Under the pieces are notes generated by a model. That model made no database searches. It saw only the letters and a list, made by a program, of their open reading frames with translations, and had not been told where the DNA came from. The position numbers and the translations under genes are program-made. 38,588 bases of DNA from Candidatus Sulfopaludibacter sp. SbA3 (GTDB lineage Bacteria > Acidobacteriota > Terriglobia > Bryobacterales > Bryobacteraceae): assembly GCA_945860645.1 (NCBI GenBank), contig CAMATG010000007.1:1-38588 (forward strand), given 5' to 3'. Positions 10,036-23,241 of the stretch are shown here, in pieces (positions within the stretch are counted from its first letter, which is position 1; each line of letters opens with the position of its first letter).

Positions 10036-11394
10036 ATGAGGCAATTGCAGCCGGTGATCTGGATGAAGGGGACTTTTTTGAGTCCCCAGCATTTGCAGAC
10101 GCAAGATCGATTTATTGAGAGCACGCTACGGTTTCACACCGAAGCGCTGAGCTTCCGCCCGTGGGGTTTCGGGCACGTTCGCATCGACCATGAGCAACTG
10201 GCGGCTGGCAACATCGCCATCGCCTCCGCGACGGGCATCTTCCCGGACGGGATGCCATTCGACATCCCCGCGCCCGATTCGCCGCCGCCGCCGAAGCCGT
10301 TGGCAGAGGCGTTCGACGTTGATCAAAACGAACTCGACGTTTTTCTGTGCATCCCCGACCAGCGGATCCCCGGGCTGAATATTTCGCTCGCGACGCGGAA
10401 GGATTCCGGTACGCGCTACTTCTCCGAAGTGGCCATGCTGCGGGATGAAAACAATGGGCTGAACGAAAAGCCGGTGCAGGTGGCGCGGAAGAATTTCCGT
10501 ATTCTGACCAGCAACGAATCGCTCGATGGGTATTCGACAATTCGCTTTGCCCGGGTTAAGCGAAACCCGACCGGAACACTGGACGTGGACCAGAAGTTCG
10601 TCCCGCCAACGCTCGACATCAGCGGCACGGAATACCTGCTGGCGCTGACCCGCCGGCTGATTGAAATTCTGAGTGCGAAGAGCTCCTTGCTGGCCAACCA
10701 ACGGCGGCAGAAGAATTTGAGCCTGGCCGATTTCGGCACCGCCGACATTGCCAATTTCTGGCTGCTGTATACGATTAACTCGCATTTTCCCCAGTTCCAG
10801 CATCTGCTGGAAGTCCGGCGCGGACATCCGGAAGCGCTCTACGAGACGATGGTTTCGCTGGCCGGGGCGCTGACAACGTTCTCCCTGAACCTGCATCCGC
10901 GGGACCTGCCGAAGTACGATCACGACAATCTGGGCGGCTGCTTCACGGAGTTGGACGAACAGATCCGAACGTTGCTGGAAACCGTTGTCCCCAGCAATTT
11001 CGTATCTTTGCCCCTCAAACTATTGCAACCGTCCATCTACGGCACGCCGCTGGCAGAGGACCGGTTCCTGAAGAATACGCGCATGTACCTGGCGATCTCG
11101 GCGGATATGAACGAGGGCGACCTTATCGCCAAGACACCGTATCTGGTGAAGGTCTGCTCGGCCAATCACATCGAGCATCTGGTGCGCCAGGCGCTGCCGG
11201 GCGTGTCGTTGACGCACGTGCCGAAACCGCCCAGCGCGGTGCCGGTGAAGCTGAACTGCCAGTACTTCAGCGTGGGTATGAGCGGCGGGGCATGGGAAGC
11301 CATTACGCGGGCTCGCAATCTGGCGGCGTACGTGCCAGGCGATCTGCCCGCCGCGAATCTGGAACTGATCATTTTGTTGCCGGAAGCGGGCTGA
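10036..11394 (+). CDS. tssK: Type VI secretion baseplate protein TssK-like (copy 1)
   Basis: 452 aa; MRQLQPVIWMKGTFLSPQHLQTQDRFIESTLRFHTEALSFRPWGF...ASATGIFPDGMPFDIP...RGHPEALYETMVSLAGALTTFS...YVPGDLPAANLELIILLPEAG; TssK/VasE-like. Confidence 0.88.
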   Translation: MRQLQPVIWMKGTFLSPQHLQTQDRFIESTLRFHTEALSFRPWGFGHVRIDHEQLAAGNIAIASATGIFPDGMPFDIPAPDSPPPPKPLAEAFDVDQNELDVFLCIPDQRIPGLNISLATRKDSGTRYFSEVAMLRDENNGLNEKPVQVARKNFRILTSNESLDGYSTIRFARVKRNPTGTLDVDQKFVPPTLDISGTEYLLALTRRLIEILSAKSSLLANQRRQKNLSLADFGTADIANFWLLYTINSHFPQFQHLLEVRRGHPEALYETMVSLAGALTTFSLNLHPRDLPKYDHDNLGGCFTELDEQIRTLLETVVPSNFVSLPLKLLQPSIYGTPLAEDRFLKNTRMYLAISADMNEGDLIAKTPYLVKVCSANHIEHLVRQALPGVSLTHVPKPPSAVPVKLNCQYFSVGMSGGAWEAITRARNLAAYVPGDLPAANLELIILLPEAG

Positions 11395-11412: not shown

Positions 11413-14400
11413 TTATTTCTTCATCGCGAAGACAACGACGACGACGATCGCCACAAGCAGCAAAACGCCCAGGGCGATGAAGATCATCTTATTGTTGGGC
11501 GGCGCGGCCTGCGGCATCCCGCCGGGCATTCCTTGGGGCATGCTGCCGGGCATTTGTGGGGCCTGCGGCATACCGGGTTGGAACGTCGGCGAATTGATGT
11601 TCATCTGCGGCGCGTTCATGTAGGGGTCCGACATCTGGGGTCCCGTCATTTGCGGCGCGCTAACGCTACCAGGCGTGAAATTCAGCCCGTCCGCCCCCAC
11701 ACCAACCTGCGGCATGTACACTTGCGGGCCGCTCATTTGCGGACCGGTCAATTGCGGGGCTCCGAACGTTGGACCTTGGACGTTGGCCATACCGCCAAGG
11801 GCACCCATCATCCCAGCACCAGCGCCACCGCCGGCACCTTGTGCACCGCCGCCGGCCGCGCCAGGAGGGCCACCGGCGCCGGGGGACATGAACATGCGCG
11901 TGTACTCGCTGGGGCCCGAGGGAGGAGCGGCTCCACCACCGGGGGCCCCGCCGAAGCCGCCACCGCCAGGGGGCATGGTGAAGACCTGTGTCGCGCTGGC
12001 GGCGGGAGGACCGCCGAAGGCAGGGGGAGGCGTATGGGGCGCGCTGGGCGGCGCCATGGAAGGGGCACCGCTGCCGGGGCCGCCGAAGATCTGGGTAAAC
12101 TCGCCAGGCGCGCCATGCGGCTTACTTGGCGTGGGGCCCTGCGGCGGGAAAGCGAAGGGCGTGGACGGAGCGCCGCCGGAGGGCCCGGCCGGGGCGGAAC
12201 CACCGCCGGAATTGAACATCCGGGTGAACTCGCCGGGCTGGCTGCCGCTGACCGATGGCAGACCGCTGGAAGGCGGGGGCGTGGACGGCAGGCTGGGAGT
12301 GGGGCCGGAGGGAGAGTTGAAGATCCTGGAGAATTCCCCGGGTGCACCCTGCGCCGGTGGCGCTTGCGGCGGCGCGTTGAACATGTTGGCGAAATCGTTA
12401 GCCGCGGCAGCGGGAGGCGCGGAGGGCGGGGCGGCGGGAGGCGGTGTGGACGGCCCGGGAGCGGTGAACATCCGGGTGAACTCGCCCCCGCCAGATGACG
12501 GCGGCGGCGCTGCCGGGGCGGATGGAGCCTTCGGCGGTTCCGGCGCTTTCGGCGGAATGCTTCCGGGGGCCGGGGCGGTGAACATCCGGGTAAATTCGCC
12601 GGCAGGAGGCGCGGCGGATGGTTTCGGCGGTTCAGCAGGCGCTGCAACCGGCACGCTGGCCGGGGCGGCGGGTTTTGGCGCTTCCGGAGCCGGGATGCTA
12701 CCGGGTAGCGGGGCCGTGAACATGCGAGTGAATTCTCCGCCTCCGGCCGGGGGCGGCGCGGCGGCGGGCGGCTTCGGCGGCTCGGGAGCCTTCGGCGGTT
12801 CCGGCGCTTTCGGGGATTCCGGCGGCGCGGTGGCGCCCATCGACTGGGCGTTGAACATCCGCGTGAATTCTCCACCTTCGCTGGCGGCGGGCGCGGCCGC
12901 CGGCGGCTTCGGCGGCTCGGGAGCCTTCGGCGGTTCCGGCGCCTTCGGGGCTTCCGGCGGAGCCGTTGCTCCCAGCGACTGGGCGTTAAACATCCGCGTG
13001 AATTCTCCGCCTTCGCTGGCGGCGGGCACGGCCGCCGGCGGCTTGGGCGGCTCTGGAGCCTTCACTGGTTCCGGGGCTTTCGGGGCTTCCGGCGTAGCTG
13101 TAGCGCCCAGCGACTGGGCGTTAAACATCCGCGTGAATTCTCCGCCTTCGCTGGCGGGGGGCGCGGCGGCCGACGGCTTCGGCGGCTCAGGAGCCTTCGG
13201 CGGTTCCGGCGCCTTCGGGGCGTCCGGCGGAGCCGTCGCGCCCGGCGACTGGGCGTTGAACATCCGCGTGAATTCTCCGCCTTCGCTGGCGGGGGGCGCG
13301 GCGGCCGGCGGCTTCGGCGGCTCAGGAGCCTTCAGCTGTTCCGGCGCCTTCGGGGCGTCCGGCGGAGCCGTCGCGCCCGGCGACTGGGCATTGAACATCC
13401 TCGTGAATTCTCCGCCTTCGCTGGCGGGAGGCGGCGCGGCGGCCGGCGCTTTCGGCGGCTCGGGAGCGACAGGCGGTGCGCTCGCCTGCGCGTTGAACAT
13501 ACGAGTGAACTCGCCCGGGGCAGCCACGGGCGGGGCAGGCGCTACGACCTGCGGAAGCGGCAACTCCTCCGTGGGGGCTTCGGCCGGGGGAGGGGGAACA
13601 CTGGCCTTCGGCGGCTCCACAGGAGAGGAGAACAGCCGGGTAAATTCGCCCGGTTCGCGGCCTTTGGCGGGGCTTGACGGCGTTGCCGGAGCGCTCGACA
13701 TCGACAGCCCGCCCTTGCCACGTTCCGGCACCTGAAAGAGCTTCAGGAAGTCCTCGTCGGCACCTTTTTTGCTTTCCGGCGGCGCCTCCGGCAGACCAGC
13801 TGATGGATTGGCGGACGGCGTCATGGCGCGAAACGGGGGAAGAGTTTCCCCGCGATTGGGAAGCGACGGCGCTTGAAAGGGAGGCAGCGTGGCCCCGCGG
13901 CTGGGGTCGTAGGCCTGGAAGGGGGGCAACGTCGCGCCTTTATCCAAATCACTTAACTTCGGCTCTGGCGCTTTAAAGGAGGGCAGTGTGGCGCCCTTGG
14001 TGGGATCGTACGCCTGGAACGAGGGGAGCGTGGCCCCCTTCTCGACATCGGCCATAAATGTCTCTGGCGCTTTAAACGAAGGTAGCGTCGCGCCTTTCGT
14101 CGGATCATAGGCGGCAAACGGAGGCAATGTGGCCCCCTTCTGCAAGTCGTTCAAGGCGGAAGGCGGCGGAAACGCTGATGGCGCGTCGGGAATTCCCCCC
14201 AGCCACTCGCGGAACCCACGCCGGTCCGGCAACAAATGGGATACCACGTACGGCGTTCCGTCGTGATCGCCCACTTCAAGCACAAACTGACGGTGCTCAG
14301 AAGGCAACTGGTGGATCTTGTCCAGCAGGACATTGTTCTCCGGCGTTCGCCCGGAGAGAAACAGATGTGCCTCCACCGCCTGGCCGGAGGCCTTCTCGCG

Positions 14401-14469
14401 CGCAACCACGGTCCGAATCCCGTCGTTTCGCAACTCTGCCAGAATCTCGTATTTGTCGTCGAAGCTCAT
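11413..14469 (-). CDS. Tail-anchored, Pro/Ala-rich multi-repeat protein: degenerate kinase N-lobe-like head, KGATLPPF array, GEFTRMF array, PQM-rich segment, C-terminal transmembrane helix
   Basis: 1018 aa from MSFDDKYEILAEL (the ORF extends to 14526 upstream); strong repeats visible in the translation; C-term KMIFIALGVLLLVAIVVVVVFAMKK. Confidence 0.85.
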   Translation of the reverse strand: MSFDDKYEILAELRNDGIRTVVAREKASGQAVEAHLFLSGRTPENNVLLDKIHQLPSEHRQFVLEVGDHDGTPYVVSHLLPDRRGFREWLGGIPDAPSAFPPPSALNDLQKGATLPPFAAYDPTKGATLPSFKAPETFMADVEKGATLPSFQAYDPTKGATLPSFKAPEPKLSDLDKGATLPPFQAYDPSRGATLPPFQAPSLPNRGETLPPFRAMTPSANPSAGLPEAPPESKKGADEDFLKLFQVPERGKGGLSMSSAPATPSSPAKGREPGEFTRLFSSPVEPPKASVPPPPAEAPTEELPLPQVVAPAPPVAAPGEFTRMFNAQASAPPVAPEPPKAPAAAPPPASEGGEFTRMFNAQSPGATAPPDAPKAPEQLKAPEPPKPPAAAPPASEGGEFTRMFNAQSPGATAPPDAPKAPEPPKAPEPPKPSAAAPPASEGGEFTRMFNAQSLGATATPEAPKAPEPVKAPEPPKPPAAVPAASEGGEFTRMFNAQSLGATAPPEAPKAPEPPKAPEPPKPPAAAPAASEGGEFTRMFNAQSMGATAPPESPKAPEPPKAPEPPKPPAAAPPPAGGGEFTRMFTAPLPGSIPAPEAPKPAAPASVPVAAPAEPPKPSAAPPAGEFTRMFTAPAPGSIPPKAPEPPKAPSAPAAPPPSSGGGEFTRMFTAPGPSTPPPAAPPSAPPAAAANDFANMFNAPPQAPPAQGAPGEFSRIFNSPSGPTPSLPSTPPPSSGLPSVSGSQPGEFTRMFNSGGGSAPAGPSGGAPSTPFAFPPQGPTPSKPHGAPGEFTQIFGGPGSGAPSMAPPSAPHTPPPAFGGPPAASATQVFTMPPGGGGFGGAPGGGAAPPSGPSEYTRMFMSPGAGGPPGAAGGGAQGAGGGAGAGMMGALGGMANVQGPTFGAPQLTGPQMSGPQVYMPQVGVGADGLNFTPGSVSAPQMTGPQMSDPYMNAPQMNINSPTFQPGMPQAPQMPGSMPQGMPGGMPQAAPPNNKMIFIALGVLLLVAIVVVVVFAMKK
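12841..13480. repeat. In-gene tandem repeat, period 135 bp (45 aa), five copies
   Basis: The phrase cgactgggcRttRaacatccKcgtgaattctcc starts at 12841, 12976, 13111, 13246 and 13381, exactly 135 bp apart. Confidence 0.93.
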
Positions 14470-14691
14470 AGGCTGTCTACCCGTTCCGTGAAAGTAGATT
14501 ATCACGCCGGCCCCGAAAGACCGCATTCAGAAAAGCACTGAGGAGGCACGCGGATTCGCATGGGAAAAGCCATCAGCCCCTCACTAATTTCCTACGGTAG
14601 CAAGTTGAAAGGGCTGTGGTAGAGTAAATCGTGCCAAGAAGCGGAAAAGGGCGGGACTTTATTCGCCGAATCCGCGTTAGGGATTAAGCGC

Positions 14692-16047
14692 ATGAAACAG
14701 CTTTCGCGCGTAGTGTGGTCGGAGGGGATGTACCTCGGGCCTCATCATTTTCAGGTACAGGGCCGCTACTTCGAAGATTCGATTCGGTTCGCGACCTCGT
14801 CTCTATGGTTTGAGCCATGGGGAATGGTTGGGTGCGAGCTCGATTCCGAAGCCCTGATCAACGGGACGCTTTCCGTCCTCCACGCCCGCGGGATATTCCC
14901 CGACGGGCTGCCCTTCCATATGCCGCAGCATGACCCGCTGCCGGTGACACGCAACATCGCCGACGAGTTTCCGATGACTCGCGACCGCGTCACGGTTTAC
15001 TTGACCATTCCCCAGCGTCGGGAAAATGGCGTCAATTGCGTGCCGTCCGAAGAGGCCTCCATAAACCCGACCCGGTTTATTGCCGAGAACCAAATGCTAT
15101 TCGACGAAACGACCGGCCGCGATGAGAAAGCGGTCCGGCTCGGCCGGAAGAATATAAAGCTCGCCTTGGATCTGGACAGTCCGGATCCCAACGCCAGCGT
15201 CGCCATTGCCCGCGTAATGCGGGACGGGTCCGGCAATTTCGTCTTTGACCCGAGCTTCGTCCCCCCTTGCGTGCAAGTCGCGGCCAGCGAACGGGTTTTG
15301 AGCCTTCTGCAGCGGCTTGTGGACATTCTGGACGACAAGAGCCGCTCGCTCGGCCGCGGCAAGAGCGGTAGCGCCAGCTTGTGGTCGGAGTATTCGACTT
15401 CAGAGATCGCCACATTCTGGATGTTGCACAGCATCAACGCCGCGCTGGCGCCGCTTCGCCACCAGTTGAAGGTGAAACGCGGGCACCCCGAAGAGCTCTA
15501 CAGCGAACTGGCGCGCCTGGCCGGTGCGCTTTGTACGTTTTCTGTTGATCATCATCCGAGCAAAATTCCGCTGTATAGACATCGGGAGTTGGACAAGACG
15601 TTTGAAGATCTTGACGCATTGATCCGATTCCTGTTGGAGACGATGGTTCCGACGCAATACATTCAGATCCCGCTCGAGAAAACGGCGGATTACTTCTATC
15701 AGGGCAACGTGACCGACCAGCGCGTCCTGAATCCGTCGAAGTGGATCCTCAGCGTGCGGTCCTCGGCCATGGAAGCCGACGTCATCCGAAAAACGCCGCA
15801 ACTGGCGAAGCTTTGCTCCACGTCCTTCGTTCCCAAACTTGTCGAGCGCGCCCTACCCGGCCTGCCGCTCATCCATCTTCCGGTCCCGCCGTCGGCCATC
15901 CGGTCGCGCGTGGACGCGCAGTATTTTGCGGTTACCTGCAAAGGTCCCTGCTGGGAGAGCGTTTCGCAAACCCGCCAGATCGGCCTCTACATCCCTGGTG
16001 ACCTGCCGGACCCCAAGCCGGAGCTGTACGTAATTCTGGAATCCTGA
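14692..16047 (+). CDS. tssK: Type VI secretion baseplate protein TssK-like (copy 2)
   Basis: 451 aa; MKQLSRVVWSEGMYLGPHHFQVQGRYFEDSIRF...LHARGIFPDGLPFHMP...KRGHPEELYSELARLAGALCTFS...YIPGDLPDPKPELYVI; same architecture as copy 1. Confidence 0.93.
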   Translation: MKQLSRVVWSEGMYLGPHHFQVQGRYFEDSIRFATSSLWFEPWGMVGCELDSEALINGTLSVLHARGIFPDGLPFHMPQHDPLPVTRNIADEFPMTRDRVTVYLTIPQRRENGVNCVPSEEASINPTRFIAENQMLFDETTGRDEKAVRLGRKNIKLALDLDSPDPNASVAIARVMRDGSGNFVFDPSFVPPCVQVAASERVLSLLQRLVDILDDKSRSLGRGKSGSASLWSEYSTSEIATFWMLHSINAALAPLRHQLKVKRGHPEELYSELARLAGALCTFSVDHHPSKIPLYRHRELDKTFEDLDALIRFLLETMVPTQYIQIPLEKTADYFYQGNVTDQRVLNPSKWILSVRSSAMEADVIRKTPQLAKLCSTSFVPKLVERALPGLPLIHLPVPPSAIRSRVDAQYFAVTCKGPCWESVSQTRQIGLYIPGDLPDPKPELYVILES

Positions 16048-16072: not shown

Positions 16073-16804
16073 ATGCATCCCAACGCTGCCCAATCCGCAC
16101 CGGCCGCCTTCGGCTCCGAGCGGCGCGCCGAAAATCTATCCTGGGTCTTCCAGGAGATATTCACTGTTATCGAGCGGTTGCGCTCCAACCGGCAGCCGGT
16201 CACGGACGCCAATGCCTTTCGCCATCAGGTCCGGGAAGCGATCAAAATGGCCGATCAGGAAGCCAAGAACCGCGGCTACGACGGGGAGGAGATCAAACTG
16301 GCGATCTTCGCCGTCATCGCGTTTCTCGATGAATCGATCCTGAATCTGCGCCTGCCCGTGTTCGCCGACTGGCCGCGACAGCCCATGCAGGAAGAGTATT
16401 TCGGCCACCATGTGGCCGGCGAAATTTTCTTCCAGCATCTGCAAAAGCTGCTGACGATGAATGACTCGCAGTCCCTGGCCGACCTGCTGGAGGTCTTTCA
16501 ACTCTGCCTCCTCCTCGGCTTCATGGGCCGGTATTCGCTCGGCAATCGTGGCGACCTGCAGCCCATCCTCCACGCGACCTCAGAGAAAATCCACCGCATT
16601 CGCCGGACCAACATCGCCATCTCCCCGTTCGGCATGCTCCCGCCACCCGGCGCCTCAGCGCCGAGCGGCAACGACCCGTGGGTAAAGCGATTCATGATCA
16701 TCGCCATCAGCTGCGTTGTCATCACCCTCGGTCTCTTCGGGACCTACTATTACCTGCTTTCCAACGGCATCAGCAGCCTCGCGTCGCTGGCCCGCGGCCG
16801 CTAA
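16073..16804 (+). CDS. tssL: TssL/DotU-like type VI secretion inner-membrane protein
   Basis: 243 aa; NLSWVFQEIFTVIERLRSNRQPVTDANAFRHQVREAIKMADQEAKNRGYDGEEIKLAIFAVIAFLDESIL; DotU signature plus a single C-terminal TM; no OmpA-like domain seen. Confidence 0.92.
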   Translation: MHPNAAQSAPAAFGSERRAENLSWVFQEIFTVIERLRSNRQPVTDANAFRHQVREAIKMADQEAKNRGYDGEEIKLAIFAVIAFLDESILNLRLPVFADWPRQPMQEEYFGHHVAGEIFFQHLQKLLTMNDSQSLADLLEVFQLCLLLGFMGRYSLGNRGDLQPILHATSEKIHRIRRTNIAISPFGMLPPPGASAPSGNDPWVKRFMIIAISCVVITLGLFGTYYYLLSNGISSLASLARGR

Positions 16805-16821: not shown

Positions 16822-19800
16822 ATGTCTCCCGTTCTTCTCGTCATCATCTGTCTCCTTATCTGGATCGGCATCGCCGTCGGCCTGGCCTATCTGATCGGCT
16901 TCACCGGATCGATGTTCTGGATCTTCATCGGCGTGATGAGCATCCTCGGCATCATCGGCGCCGGGGTCTATTTGTGGCTCCGTTCCAAGCAACCGGCCAA
17001 GCCCGGCACCAATAGCGGCGACCCCGAAATCGACGCCTTGTGCAAGGATGTCGACAACAAACTGGCCGTCGCCAAAACCGTCCAGGGCGCCAAGATCAAC
17101 AACCTGCCGCTGGTGTTCCTCATGGGCGAAAACGGCAGCGTGAAGACCACCACGCTGCTCAACAGCGGCTTGGAACCGGAACTTGTTTCCGGTCAGGTTT
17201 ATCAGGACACCAACGTCGTTCCCACCCGGCTGGCGAACGTTTTCCTCGCCCGCCAGACACTGTTCATGGACACCGCCGGTGGCTTCATGAACGATGGCAA
17301 CCGCTGGCAGCGCCTGGTCCGGCGCCTGGCTCCGGGGCAGTTGAAGAGCGTCGTCGGCGCCCAGGCGCAGGCGCCCCGCGCCGCCGTCGTCACCTTCGAT
17401 GGCGAGACGTTTTTCCGCCAGGGCGGCAACGAAGCGGCCACTGTCATTGCCCGCAAGTTGAACGAACGGCTTGTCGAAATCTCCGCCCAATTGGGCATTC
17501 GCGTCCCCGTCTACGTGCTGTTCACCCGCATGGACCGCATGCAGTTCTTCCTCGATTTCGTCCGCAACATCGGCAACGAAGAGGCTCTGCAGATCTTCGG
17601 ATGCACCCTGCCGCTGCCCGCCTTGGACGGCTCCGGCATTTATTCCGAAGACGAAACGCGCCGGATCACCGATCAGTACAGCCTGCTGACGCACTCCCTG
17701 TGCGACAAGCGACTGCTGTTCCTCCCCCGCGAAAATGACCCCACGAAACTCCCCGGTGCCTACGAATTTGCCCGTGAATTCACCAAATTGCGCCGGCCGC
17801 TGGTCCAGTTCCTGGTCGACCTCTGCAAGCCCAGCCAGCTGAAAACCTCGCCCTTTCTGCGCGGGTTCTACTTCTCCGGCGTCCGCCCGATTGTCATCGA
17901 CGATTCGGCCGGCCTCCAGGCCGCCCGCCAGCAGCACGCACCGGCTATCGATGCCGGCCAGGGGGGCGCCACCAAGATCTTCAAACTCGGTCCCGGCGGC
18001 ACCATGGGACAGAACAATCCCAGCTTCACGCCCCAGGTCGGCGCCACGCGCAAAGTCCCGCAGTGGACCTTCCTCGGCCGGCTGTTCAACGACGTCATTC
18101 TGGCCGATCACGAAGCCCAAAGCGCCTCCAGTGCCAGCACCAAAACGTCGATGGCGCAGCGCATCCTGCTCGGCGCCGCCGCGGGCCTTTCGCTGATTGC
18201 TCTCACCGCGTTCACAGTCAGTTTCTTCAACAACCGGACGCTGGAAAATGATGCGTTGGAAGCCGCGCGCGGTATCGCCAGCGTCAACATTACTGACCCC
18301 AACGCCCTCGTCGACAAAGCGTCGCTCGAGAAGCTTGAAACACTGCGCCAGACGCTCCAGAACCTGGATCAGTACAAGGTGGATGGCGCGCCGTACAAGC
18401 TCCGCATGGGCCTCTATTCCGGCAACGACATGTATCCGCACGTCAAGGAAATCTGGTGCCAGAAGTTCAACCAGACCCTCCTCGGGCCCACCCATGGCGG
18501 ACTGCAGCGCATGCTGAAGGGCCTGCCTTCGTCGCCGCAACCCACCGACGATTACGGCACCTATTTCAGCGCCCTGCGAACCTATCTGACGATCACCGTC
18601 TATCCGGACAAGTCCACCAAGGACATCACCGCCGCGGCGCTCTACAACGCCTGGTCGGCCGGCCGCGACGTCAGCGACCGCGCCCAGATCGCCCGCGCGC
18701 AGTTCGACTTCTACGCCGATTATCTGCGCAACTCCGGCGGCTGCCCGCTGCCCTTCGACGCCGAAGCCGGCACCCGCGGCCGTCGCTTCCTGGCGCAGTT
18801 CTCCGGCGTCGATAGTATCTATCAATCGATGCTCGCCTCGGCCAACAAGGCCAACAAGCCCGTCAACTACAACCGCGATATCAAGAACTCGAAAGAGATC
18901 ATCGTCAACGATAAGGACGTCGCCGGCGCCTTCACCAAGGAAGGCTTCGGCACCATGTCGGGCTATATCAAGAACCCCGACCCCTTCTTCGGCGGCGACA
19001 AATGGGTACTCTGCGGCGAAACGTCCAACGCCAAGGACACCGCCCGCACCAGCTGCGACAACGGCGCCGGGTCCATCGACCGTACCAACCTCGCCAAGAA
19101 CCTGACCGACCGCTACACGGCCGACTACATCCGCTCCTGGCGCGGCTACTTCCGCAACTCCACATTCGTGAAGTACAAGGACCTCGAAGACGCTACCGCC
19201 AAGCTCGATCAAATCGTCTCCAACGACACGCCGCTGATGGCGCTCTTCTGGCTCGCCACCCGCAACGTGGCCGTCGAGAACGACAAGATCAAGCTGGCCT
19301 TCCAGCCAATTATGGAAGTGGTGCCGCCGCCGGCCACCGTCCAGAAGTACATCTACGCCGAGAAGAACGGCGTCTACATCGACTCGCTGGCCAAGCTCCA
19401 GAAGGCGCTCTCCGACGCCGTACCCAATCTGAAAACCGATCCCAATGCGGCCAACAAACCCATCGACGCCGCCGGCGATTCGCGCATGCAGGTGAAAGCC
19501 GTGGCGCGGAGCTTCAACCCGGACCCCGATGGCCAGGTGGACCAGATGGCGTTCAAAATCCTGGAGGATCCCATTATTCAGGTGGACCGTTTCCTGAAGG
19601 GCATGGGCAAGGATGAACTCAATGCCAAAGGCGCCGGATTCTGCAACCAGAAGTTTGCCGGCCTGCGCGGCAAGTTCCCCTTCAACCCCGCCGCTAAAGT
19701 CGACGCCACGCTCGACGATGTCGTCAAAGTGTTCCACCCGGGCGATGGCGCCATCTGGGCCTTCATCGACAACGACTTGAAAAAATATGTGAAGAAGGAT

Positions 19801-20328
19801 GGCGGAAAGTGGGTGGGCGTCAACGCCGACAACATCCAGATCAACCCGGCCTTCCTTGCCTTCGCCAACCAGGCGCAGCGCTTCTCCGACATGGTCTTCC
19901 CCGGCGGCTCGCAGCAGCCGAAGATGGTCTACACGTTGACGCCGTTGAAGTCCGACGTCGTCACCGGTAGTTCGCTGACCATCGACGGACAAACCCAGCA
20001 GTTCGGCGCCTCCGGCGGCGGGAAACAGTTCAACTGGCCCGGAAACCAGCAGGGTGTTCGCGGCAGCGTGAAACTAGTGGGCGGCACTGCCTTCGACGTC
20101 GAAGCGCAGTCCGGCATCTGGGGCATCTACCGCTTCATCTACGCGGCCGATCGGGTCACGCCCACCGGCGGCGGCCAGAGCATCGAGTGGATTGTCCGCC
20201 AGGGCAAAGCGGCTAAGCCCATGATCATCGGCGACAAAGAAGCCAGCTACAAATTTGAGGTGAATGTGCCGATCTTCTCTCGTGAATTCAACCAGGCGCT
20301 GCAGTGCGTGCCGCTGGTGGCAAAGTGA
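16822..20328 (+). CDS. tssM: TssM/IcmF-like type VI secretion inner-membrane protein
   Basis: 1168 aa; two N-terminal TM helices, P-loop region LVFLMGENGSVKTTTLLNSGLE, FMDTAGGFM, PVYVLFTRMDRMQFF, PFLRGFYFSGVRP, then a third TM (ILLGAAAGLSLIALTAFTVSFF) and a long C-terminal region. Confidence 0.93.
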   Translation: MSPVLLVIICLLIWIGIAVGLAYLIGFTGSMFWIFIGVMSILGIIGAGVYLWLRSKQPAKPGTNSGDPEIDALCKDVDNKLAVAKTVQGAKINNLPLVFLMGENGSVKTTTLLNSGLEPELVSGQVYQDTNVVPTRLANVFLARQTLFMDTAGGFMNDGNRWQRLVRRLAPGQLKSVVGAQAQAPRAAVVTFDGETFFRQGGNEAATVIARKLNERLVEISAQLGIRVPVYVLFTRMDRMQFFLDFVRNIGNEEALQIFGCTLPLPALDGSGIYSEDETRRITDQYSLLTHSLCDKRLLFLPRENDPTKLPGAYEFAREFTKLRRPLVQFLVDLCKPSQLKTSPFLRGFYFSGVRPIVIDDSAGLQAARQQHAPAIDAGQGGATKIFKLGPGGTMGQNNPSFTPQVGATRKVPQWTFLGRLFNDVILADHEAQSASSASTKTSMAQRILLGAAAGLSLIALTAFTVSFFNNRTLENDALEAARGIASVNITDPNALVDKASLEKLETLRQTLQNLDQYKVDGAPYKLRMGLYSGNDMYPHVKEIWCQKFNQTLLGPTHGGLQRMLKGLPSSPQPTDDYGTYFSALRTYLTITVYPDKSTKDITAAALYNAWSAGRDVSDRAQIARAQFDFYADYLRNSGGCPLPFDAEAGTRGRRFLAQFSGVDSIYQSMLASANKANKPVNYNRDIKNSKEIIVNDKDVAGAFTKEGFGTMSGYIKNPDPFFGGDKWVLCGETSNAKDTARTSCDNGAGSIDRTNLAKNLTDRYTADYIRSWRGYFRNSTFVKYKDLEDATAKLDQIVSNDTPLMALFWLATRNVAVENDKIKLAFQPIMEVVPPPATVQKYIYAEKNGVYIDSLAKLQKALSDAVPNLKTDPNAANKPIDAAGDSRMQVKAVARSFNPDPDGQVDQMAFKILEDPIIQVDRFLKGMGKDELNAKGAGFCNQKFAGLRGKFPFNPAAKVDATLDDVVKVFHPGDGAIWAFIDNDLKKYVKKDGGKWVGVNADNIQINPAFLAFANQAQRFSDMVFPGGSQQPKMVYTLTPLKSDVVTGSSLTIDGQTQQFGASGGGKQFNWPGNQQGVRGSVKLVGGTAFDVEAQSGIWGIYRFIYAADRVTPTGGGQSIEWIVRQGKAAKPMIIGDKEASYKFEVNVPIFSREFNQALQCVPLVAK

Positions 20329-20382: not shown

Positions 20383-21585
20383 ATGCAGCTCCCTGCGCGG
20401 ATTGGCAAATACGAATTGCAGGAATTCCTCGGCGGTGGCATGTCACATGTCTATCGCTCGCAGGACACGGTGCTTGGCCGCACTGTTGCCGTGAAAATTC
20501 TCACGGAACAGGGCTGCTCTGACGCTGAAGCGAAAGCTCGCTTCCTGCAGGAGGCCCGCGTGGCTTCCAGCATCGTTCATGAAAACATCATGAACGTCTT
20601 TGATTTCGGCGAAGAGGGCGGCAAGCCCTATATCGTCATGGAGTTTCTCCGCGGGGAGAATCTGCGTGACGCCATTCGCAACGGCCGCGCCGGCGACATC
20701 CGGAACCGGCTACGCCTGGCGGTGCAGACCGCCAAGGCGCTCGACTACATTCACCAGAAAAAGATCATCCATCGCGACATTAAGCCGGAGAATCTGCAAG
20801 TGGATTCCACCGGCAGGATTAAATTGATGGACTTCGGTATCGCCAAAGCCGAAGGGATGCAACTCACCCGCGCTGGTTTCACCTTGGGCACGCCCTATTA
20901 CATGGCGCCGGAGCAGGTGCTGGGCCAGCAAGTGACGCATCTGGTGGACGTCTATTCCTTCGGCATTTTGCTGTTTGAGATGCTGTGCGGCAACAAGCCG
21001 ATCAGCGGCGACACGATCGAGAAGATTTTCAACAAGATCCTCTATGAACCGCTCGATATGGCGCCGTTACAGGCGGCAGGCGTCGATCCAGAAGTGCTGC
21101 GGATCGTCTCCAAGTGCACGGCCAAACAGCCGCAGGACCGCTATCAGAAGCTGTTTGACACCGCCGTCGACATCGAACGGTATCTGGGCGTCCAAAGCGC
21201 TTCGCGCATGGTGACCACCAGCATGCCCACCATGGGCTCCATGCAGCCGCAGAATCAGCCGTCGCAAACGCCCACATCGGCCACGCGTCCGCCAGCCCAA
21301 ACCGGCTACACCCAGCAGACCCCGCCGCAGACGCAGCAACGGCCAACAACCACCAGCCAGCAACCCGGCAATCAACCCGTCGGGCAAACCGGCTGGCCCC
21401 CCACCCAGCAGACCGGCGCGCGGCCCAATATCAGTGGCACGCAGCAGGTGCCGGAGGGCCTCCCGGGCTTCGTGAAAATCCTCCCGGCTGCTTTACAGAA
21501 CCAAACCGGGGTCATGATTCTCGTCGCGGTTGCCGTTCTGCTCTTCATGGCCGCTATTTATTTTGTGATTAGCTTAGTATCCTAA
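20383..21585 (+). CDS. Ser/Thr protein kinase, tail-anchored by a C-terminal TM
   Basis: 400 aa; GKYELQEFLGGGMSHVYRSQD, VAVKIL, HRDIKPEN, MDFGIAK; Q/T/P-rich linker and C-term MILVAVAVLLFMAAIYFVISLVS. Confidence 0.95.
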   Translation: MQLPARIGKYELQEFLGGGMSHVYRSQDTVLGRTVAVKILTEQGCSDAEAKARFLQEARVASSIVHENIMNVFDFGEEGGKPYIVMEFLRGENLRDAIRNGRAGDIRNRLRLAVQTAKALDYIHQKKIIHRDIKPENLQVDSTGRIKLMDFGIAKAEGMQLTRAGFTLGTPYYMAPEQVLGQQVTHLVDVYSFGILLFEMLCGNKPISGDTIEKIFNKILYEPLDMAPLQAAGVDPEVLRIVSKCTAKQPQDRYQKLFDTAVDIERYLGVQSASRMVTTSMPTMGSMQPQNQPSQTPTSATRPPAQTGYTQQTPPQTQQRPTTTSQQPGNQPVGQTGWPPTQQTGARPNISGTQQVPEGLPGFVKILPAALQNQTGVMILVAVAVLLFMAAIYFVISLVS

Positions 21586-21591
21586 TTGCTC

Positions 21592-23241
21592 ATGCAACTT
21601 CCCGCGCGGTTCGGAAAATACGAGCTGCAGGAGTTCCTCGGCGGTGGAATGTCTCACGTCTACCGCGCCGTGGACACTGTGATCGGGCGTGCGGTAGCGG
21701 TGAAAATCCTCACCCCGGACGCTGCTCTCGATAGCGAGGCCAAGGAGCGCTTCCTGCACGAAGCGCGCATCTCGGGCGCCATCCAGCACGACCATATCGT
21801 CACCATTCACGACTACGGCGAAGAGCAGGGCCTGCCCTACATCGTCATGGAGCACCTGCGCGGCGGAGACCTGCGCGATGCCCTCCGCAAAGGCACAGCG
21901 GGCGACGTGATGAATCGCCTCCGCATTGCCGCCGAAATGGCCGCCGCGTTGGAGTACGTTCATTCGCGCGGCGTCATCCACCGGGATATCAAGCCGGAAA
22001 ACGTGTTCCTGGAGGCCTCCGGCCGCTCCAAGCTGATGGACTTCGGCATCTCCAAGGCCGCCGGGTTCAACCTCACCAAGGCCGGCAACACCATGGGCAC
22101 GCCGTTCTACATGTCGCCGGAACAGGTGATGGGCGTCAACATTACGCCGTTGGTCGACGTGTATTCCTACGGCATCGTACTGTACGAAATGTTCACCGGT
22201 GAACGCCTCGTCACCGGCGACAGTATGGAACGCCTGTTCTACGCCATCCTGCACGAAAATCCGAACCCGTCGAAACTCCAGAACGCGGGCCTGCCCCCGG
22301 CCCTGTGCGATTTGATCGTACGCTGCACGGCAAAGAAGCCGGAAGAACGAATCCAAGGGTTTGGCCAGGTACGCCAGGCGTTGGCAAAAATCATCGCGGA
22401 GCCCGGCGGCGGCGCGGCGGCGCCGGTCACGCCCCCAGCGAAAGCCAGCTCCGGCTCCTCGATGGGCCTGATTGCGGCCGCGGTAGTCGGTTTGGTTGTC
22501 ATTGGCGGCGCTCTCTACATGTTCCTGGGCGGGAAATCGGCGACGCCCCCAACACCGAAGTCCTCCGGTCCGGCCGCCACCCTGGCAGCCAAAGGCGGCA
22601 ACATGGCGCTCGTACCCGCCGGCGAGTTCCTGTTTGGCTCCTCGCGGTCGCCGGTGAAACTGCCCGCCTTCTACATGGACAACACCGAAGTCAGCAACAA
22701 GGCCTATCGCGAGTTCGCCAGCGCGGCGAGCCACGCACTGCCGGATGGCTTCGCCGCCGAAGCCCCCACGCTCCCGGTTACCAACATCGGCTATCCCGAT
22801 GCCAAAGAGTTCTGCGCCTGGGCCGGCAAGCGCCTGCCCGACGAGCGCGAGTGGGAGAAGGCCGCGCGCGGCGCCGATGGCCGCAACTACCCGTGGGGCA
22901 ACAACGAAACGGCAGCCAACGCCAACGTCGGCAACAAAGGCCCAGCCCCGGTCGAAAGTTTTGAATCCGGCGCCAGCCCCTACAAGCTGTTGAACATGAC
23001 CGGCAACGTCTGGGAATGGGTAGACCATCCGCACACGCCCAGCGCCCAGGCCATCGCCAGTTTCGGTAAGCTCATGAAACCAGCGCCCACAGCCAGCGAG
23101 CCGTGGCATTACATCAAGGGCGGAGCCTTCGACCGTACTCTGGCCGAAGGCGTAACCTATGAGTGGTCCAGCGTCCCGGGGCGCTTTACCAGTCCCACCA
23201 TTGGCTTCCGCTGCGCCATGGACGTGCCAGAGGCAAAGTAA
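21592..23241 (+). CDS. Ser/Thr protein kinase - TM - FGE/SUMF1-like (formylglycine-generating enzyme fold) fusion
   Basis: Kinase motifs AVAVKIL, HRDIKPEN, MDFGISK; TM SMGLIAAAVVGLVVIGGALYMFLG; then NMALVPAGEFLFGS...DNTEVSNKAYREF...RLPDEREWEKAARG...NMTGNVWEWV...GFRCA. ATG at 21592 preferred over the TTG at 21586. Confidence 0.94.
   Translation: MQLPARFGKYELQEFLGGGMSHVYRAVDTVIGRAVAVKILTPDAALDSEAKERFLHEARISGAIQHDHIVTIHDYGEEQGLPYIVMEHLRGGDLRDALRKGTAGDVMNRLRIAAEMAAALEYVHSRGVIHRDIKPENVFLEASGRSKLMDFGISKAAGFNLTKAGNTMGTPFYMSPEQVMGVNITPLVDVYSYGIVLYEMFTGERLVTGDSMERLFYAILHENPNPSKLQNAGLPPALCDLIVRCTAKKPEERIQGFGQVRQALAKIIAEPGGGAAAPVTPPAKASSGSSMGLIAAAVVGLVVIGGALYMFLGGKSATPPTPKSSGPAATLAAKGGNMALVPAGEFLFGSSRSPVKLPAFYMDNTEVSNKAYREFASAASHALPDGFAAEAPTLPVTNIGYPDAKEFCAWAGKRLPDEREWEKAARGADGRNYPWGNNETAANANVGNKGPAPVESFESGASPYKLLNMTGNVWEWVDHPHTPSAQAIASFGKLMKPAPTASEPWHYIKGGAFDRTLAEGVTYEWSSVPGRFTSPTIGFRCAMDVPEAK

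Follow-up and report, generated by a model that had tools for sequence, protein, structure and literature searches.

Most work on how T6SS assembly sites are chosen and activated has been done in Proteobacteria and has centered on PpkA, Fha, and TssL. FHA domains are specific for phosphothreonine; in Agrobacterium the T6SS Fha protein binds the pThr14 site of TssL (PMC3953482), and in Acidovorax condensates of PpkA and Fha recruit T6SS parts (PMC12607579). The TQXF cluster of MDC1 is an FHA docking array (PMC11884936), and the logo of PknA-dependent phosphosites in mycobacteria favors a hydrophobic residue at +3 and acidic residues before the Thr (PMC7164672). In this work we analyzed a T6SS locus in the window (the whole stretch of DNA under study, 38,588 nucleotides), in which a gene for a tail-anchored protein with an array of short T-x-x-F motifs lies between two tssK genes. 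We conclude that this array protein represents a real, conserved, and undescribed T6SS-locus family with an unusually clean short motif. The features of the locus are as follows.

10036..11394, plus strand: tssK1, convergent with the array gene (PF05936, E 3.8e-134; TIGR03353)
11413..14469, minus strand: array protein gene, 1,018 aa, with the conserved start M20 from orthologue comparison
11416..11502, minus strand: C-terminal transmembrane helix and AMKK tail, aa 1009-1037 (hydropathy)
11518..11787, minus strand: xPQM-type short repeats, about aa 914-1003, N-terminal of the membrane anchor (read from sequence)
11890..13755, minus strand: 16 FxxPhiF motifs, aa 258-879, 10 of them exact GEFTRMF and 14 with Thr/Ser at the key position
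12717..13467, minus strand: 135-bp (45-aa) tandem repeat block, mid-array (repeat analysis)
13831..14136, minus strand: seven KGATLPxF-type motifs, aa 131-232 (sequence)
14179..14469, minus strand: kinase N-lobe-like domain without the catalytic C-lobe, aa 20-116 (profile, AlphaFold, Foldseek)
14692..16047, plus strand: tssK2, divergent from the array gene (PF05936, E 4.7e-129; TIGR03353)
16073..16804, plus strand: tssL (DotU; PF09850, E 1.4e-43)
16822..20328, plus strand: tssM (IcmF; PF06761, TIGR03348)
20383..21585, plus strand: Ser/Thr kinase 1, intact HRD and DFG, C-terminal tail anchor
21586..23241, plus strand: Ser/Thr kinase 2, intact HRD and DFG, transmembrane segment, FGE-sulfatase domain

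The T6SS is genuine and its genes are split across the genome. TssC of the window's genome is encoded on another contig (C103) and is also present in relatives, whose T6SS clusters encode TssB, Hcp, ImpE, TssA, TssE, TssF, TssG, a ClpV-type ATPase, and VgrG. The first-pass annotation had described the locus as T6SS-like; the T6SS linkage stands, and the wording gives way to a genuine T6SS with the remaining apparatus encoded elsewhere. Most genomes of the genus encode one kind of TssC-like sheath protein scoring about 460 bits and another scoring about 200 bits, which makes a second contractile system probable, and two genomes (G009, G011) keep sheath genes with TssK not detected. The formylglycine-enzyme-like domain of kinase 2 follows the transmembrane segment and is predicted to be periplasmic. 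In other loci the space between the array gene and tssK1, or the place of the array itself, is taken by methyltransferase-like genes (L055:4047-5678, L061:6887-8656, and L067:11938-15126, called by the Pfam MTS domain; L168:8199-9806 and L173:8168-9766, called by sequence only).

The longest ORF of the array gene covers 11413-14526 on the minus strand; orthologues open at M20 (MSFDDKYE), so that 11413-14469 is the likely gene. By hydropathy the protein has one transmembrane segment, at the C-terminus and followed by a short basic tail, and no hydrophobic segment at the N-terminus, which bears out the earlier description of a membrane-anchored protein. It matched no named family in Pfam and NCBIfam, again as had been supposed. 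The string GEFTRMF gave no match in the literature searched, no title on the array protein was found in the literature on T6SS in Acidobacteria or Bryobacter, and a search for relatives on plasmids gave no match. The KGATLPxF-type motifs (KGATLPPF, 7 copies) form a second motif family found only in the same genus (g1); these motifs, the kinase N-lobe, and the dispersal of T6SS genes over the genome were absent from the first-pass annotation.

That annotation had placed an array of about 16 motifs in this gene, and we found the same 16: 10 GEFTRMF plus EDFLKLF, GEFTRLF, NDFANMF, GEFSRIF, GEFTQIF, and SEYTRMF. Its regular expression, [GSN][ED][FY][TSA][RNQK][MIL]F, matches the array protein 15 times, whereas 20,000 shuffles of the same protein averaged 0.00015 matches with never more than 1, and it has no match outside the array gene in the six frames of the window. 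A DNA pattern for the exact heptad occurs 10 times genome-wide, every time inside the array gene, and reversed-pattern controls gave 0. The statement that each motif carries a Thr or Ser holds for 14 of the 16 copies and fails for EDFLKLF and NDFANMF.

Codon comparisons separate the motif from its surroundings. The array is not a plain recent duplication: its 10 identical heptads are encoded by differing synonymous codons and, compared pair by pair, show 125 synonymous differences, while in the seven codons on either side the differences are mostly amino-acid changes. The central 135-bp tandem block (12717-13467) spans five to six motif copies. Against L039, the closest fully read orthologue, we counted 33 synonymous to 1 nonsynonymous changes in motif codons, 263 to 69 in linker codons, and 26 to 3 in the N-terminal domain. 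These ratios indicate strong purifying selection on the motif and a drifting linker. Together the shuffles and the codon analysis rule out low complexity or chance as the source of the motifs, and the ratios and the orthologues agree with the original view of a conserved multivalent motif amid divergent linkers.

What is conserved in the motif can be stated as a grammar. With the prefix [GPAS][ED][FY] as anchor in 16 deep lineages, Thr follows in 104 of 112 copies, and Phe stands at +3 from the Thr position in 97 of 112. With F-x-x-Phi-F as anchor, Thr outnumbers Ser 108 to 2 at the key position, compared with 371 Thr and 506 Ser in the linkers; Ser is rare in every lineage, and the Fisher p of 2.6e-34 for this contrast is too small because motif copies are related by descent and are not independent. 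Across 45 array proteins T-x-x-F occurs 403 times (63 expected), while S-x-x-F is depleted (47 seen, 72 expected). The core of the motif is T-x-x-F: the array of L140 has changed the -1 and +2 positions and kept it, and the grammar is shared across genera and families. The fixed-context Thr proposed at the outset is thus found in most copies; the exceptions are variants preceded by D/E with Leu, Met, or Ala in its place (EDFLKLF, DDFMKLF, NDFANMF), of which the Thr-less EDFLKLF/DDFMKLF variant is kept across the genus.

The N-terminal domain (~95 aa, globular) has the fold of a kinase N-lobe. A profile of 29 orthologous N-domains matched kinase N-lobes in the PDB (residues 8-91 of a MARK2 chain, E 0.0016), and a smaller profile matched kinases phylum-wide (E 1e-7 to 1e-5); Pfam gave neither a kinase nor another convincing match. 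AlphaFold with the 29-row alignment returned a mean pLDDT of 88 and the order beta1-beta2-beta3-alphaC-beta4-beta5. The best 50 Foldseek matches were all protein kinases (probability 1.00, query TM about 0.54-0.66); no single match fell below E 0.001, and the fold assignment therefore rests on this uniform list together with the sequence profile. The catalytic C-lobe (HRD, DFG) is absent, the N-lobe running directly into the disordered linker, and, as read from the sequences, another residue, often His, takes the place of the beta3 Lys. The domain is thus not an enzyme and cannot be a kinase. In an AlphaFold model of aa 20-480 the motifs are unstructured (pLDDT about 45-60), with a short predicted helix at EDFLKLF as the sole exception; since this model gives no structured docking, we rejected the idea that the motifs dock on the protein's own N-lobe. 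A bare-N-lobe-like domain also heads an array-less protein in G049 (L058:3787-6798), apparently with TPR and PEGA-like repeats.

Next, we examined the distribution of the family. Searches of 61 genomes with the N-terminal region matched 29, and the motif DNA pattern was present in 30, its sites being array proteins beside tssK where contigs allow. In G019 the array gene and tssK are on separate contigs, and G057 has a single isolated chance match; the motif is otherwise confined to the array gene in these genomes. No array was found in the genomes without TssK (G009, G011, G021). To avoid ascertainment bias, we retrieved 80 TssK2 loci with TssK2 as the sole query. They come from Acidobacteria, mostly Bryobacterales MAGs including Candidatus Sulfopaludibacter, with two records under other taxon labels. 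The array gene is directly upstream of and divergent from tssK2 in 57 of the 80, and all 57 array proteins carry the kinase N-lobe. Among the remaining loci, L140 has a variant array missed by the filter, several run into a contig end, as L105 and L124 do, or have their array beside TssK1 at another place, and some, such as L168 and L173, have no array. In most loci the array gene lies between tssK1 and tssK2, and it stays with either gene when those separate (with tssK1 in G027 and G034, with tssK2 in G025). Motif number and linkers vary widely between orthologues, from about 2 to 20 copies, and copy numbers are lower bounds for the many contigs that break inside the array. The first two of the outcomes named beforehand as damaging were looked for and not found: arrays do not lie mostly away from T6SS loci, the linkage being strict, and the motifs are conserved between orthologues.

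Kinases, readers, and phosphatases were surveyed in the same loci. Of 55 informative loci, 38 have a kinase gene after tssM; among the 36 that bear an array the number is 23, and the other 13 have no kinase beside tssM. Kinases thus adjoin only about two-thirds of loci, which speaks against universal use of adjacent kinases. The flanking sequence retrieved with the 80 TssK2 loci, up to 10 kb, contained no FHA gene, and in the array-bearing genomes G027 and G032 the sole FHA domains detected are on FHA-SpoIIE and FHA-cyclase proteins. A candidate protein with an FHA domain, a transmembrane segment, and a lytic transglycosylase domain (FHA-TM-SLT) is encoded in the window's genome (L083:3181-4674, on C315), and its counterpart in G030 (L079:6888-8411), and only there, lies in a T6SS cluster near VgrG and a PAAR-like (DUF4280) gene. 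Many array-bearing genera lack it, and G009 and G011, which have no TssK, have it. As this distribution does not track the array, and most of its neighborhoods that were read hold no T6SS genes, we regard it as no more than a possible dedicated reader; a link from Thr phosphorylation to cell-wall opening through it is possible. A SpoIIE-type phosphatase is encoded in 5 of the 80 TssK2 loci and not in the window; such genes were seen in or near the tssK1-tssK2 slot in L084 (6669-9251), L141, L144, L146, L148, and L164.

Our preferred reading, to which we give a little less than an even chance, is that the array protein is a tail-anchored, multivalent T6SS assembly scaffold, probably switched by threonine phosphorylation. 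The motif string is most likely cytoplasmic, given the lack of an N-terminal hydrophobic segment, the N-terminal kinase lobe, and the C-terminal tail anchor. The transmembrane helix would hold the protein in the inner membrane beside TssL/TssM, and the disordered linker would offer its about 2-20 T-x-x-F motifs, most often GEFTRMF, to one repeated partner surface; binding at many sites may then concentrate T6SS assembly parts at the membrane. A multivalent docking strip is favored by disordered near-identical motifs encoded beside TssL/TssM and between two TssK genes. The near-invariant Thr would most likely be the switch: a kinase may phosphorylate it, and pT-x-x-F would then be read in the manner of FHA domains, since Thr and not Ser is what phosphothreonine readers demand. 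The bare N-lobe probably links the scaffold with a kinase or a second copy of itself. We infer the phosphorylation step with caution because FHA genes are unlinked, kinases are not universal, two motifs of the window (EDFLKLF and NDFANMF) lack a Thr, and the motifs are undocked in AlphaFold.

The main rival keeps the docking and drops the phosphate: unmodified F-T-x-Phi-F would bind a repeated surface of the baseplate or membrane complex and tether baseplates to the inner membrane by avidity, with TssK1 and TssK2 as obvious candidate partners. The position of the array gene, mostly between the two tssK genes and accompanying either when they part, fits such a role, as do the array loci without an adjacent kinase and the conserved Thr-less variants that keep the aromatic/hydrophobic pattern (EDFLKLF/DDFMKLF, the former a predicted short helix). 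However, it leaves both the near-absence of Thr-to-Ser replacement and the depletion of S-x-x-F unexplained, and in L140 T-x-x-F persists through changes at -1 and +2; we consider this rival a possible but rather unlikely explanation. The same Thr preference is unexplained if the motifs dock on kinase N-lobes, either of the neighboring kinases in trans or between copies of the array protein, in the way the AGC hydrophobic motif sits in the PIF pocket, leading to self-association or kinase gathering. Motifs and N-lobe do occur together in every array protein, and the N-lobe fold is supported; F-T-x-Phi presumably resembles the C-terminal hydrophobic motif of AGC kinases, a likeness that we take as a lead and not as a test. 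Since the motifs of aa 20-480 stay at pLDDT about 45-60 with no structured docking, we think this improbable.

Two further explanations deny the motifs a role in docking or place them elsewhere in the cell. The array could be an entropic spacer or low-complexity tether grown by slippage, with function confined to the N-lobe and membrane anchor. The 135-bp tandem block is a recent expansion, and motif number and linkers vary widely, both of which suit a spacer; but the selection pattern already contradicts it, with a single nonsynonymous change in the motif codons, identical heptads in different codons, and one grammar across genera and families, and we regard it as highly improbable. Least probable of all is a surface-exposed or secreted protein (an adhesin or T6SS cargo) in place of a cytoplasmic scaffold. 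Pro/Ala-rich repeats are common in surface proteins, but here the N-terminus has a kinase N-lobe and no hydrophobic segment, and the single transmembrane segment is C-terminal with a short basic tail.

For a large and uncharacterized lineage of soil and freshwater Acidobacteria the family provides a conserved T6SS-locus scaffold of the lineage's own and a genomic marker for such loci, and it shows a kinase N-lobe retained by itself in a non-catalytic role. The motif grammar is clear and directly testable: Thr in preference to Ser, Phe three residues further on, and a high copy number. If the Thr is a switch, the array would be a natural bacterial case of multivalent phospho-docking, whose variable copy number offers a ready-made titration.

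Compared with known systems, the array protein shares parts with several of them. The N-lobe fold and weak sequence homology connect its N-domain to PknB-type Ser/Thr kinases, unlike which it has no C-lobe (HRD, DFG) and a replaced beta-3 Lys. With the T6SS threonine phosphorylation pathway (PpkA-Fha-PppA; pThr14-TssL/Fha in Agrobacterium; the Acidovorax condensates) the locus has in common Ser/Thr kinases encoded with TssL/TssM, a Thr at a fixed site, and, as proposed here, membrane-linked recruitment of assembly parts. It differs in having a separate tail-anchored protein with many motifs where that pathway has one site in TssL, in the bare kinase N-lobe, and in array loci without a linked Fha; because the search for a linked Fha was negative, we rejected membership in the PpkA-Fha pathway. 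FxxLF-type and AGC hydrophobic-motif peptides are short Phe-rich amphipathic groove-dockers, which the array motifs may resemble, and under that comparison the Thr invariance would stay unexplained. The TQXF cluster of MDC1, whose readers are the FHA domains of RNF8 and Pellino, is like the array in its repeated T-x-x-F within a disordered region, with several Thr, a fixed Phe at +3, and Thr not Ser, and a minority of the bacterial motifs match TQxF exactly. MDC1 is a eukaryotic nuclear protein with four copies and no homology, and the bacterial reader is only putative. By this analogy the array protein may be a bacterial phosphothreonine docking strip, an N-lobe-only kinase with a tail-anchored T-x-x-F string that would be phosphorylated by T6SS-linked kinases and nucleate machine assembly, convergent with MDC1; in this specific form we hold the idea to be speculative and on the unlikely side. 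The family is best placed among T6SS assembly or regulation scaffolds, as a new variant.
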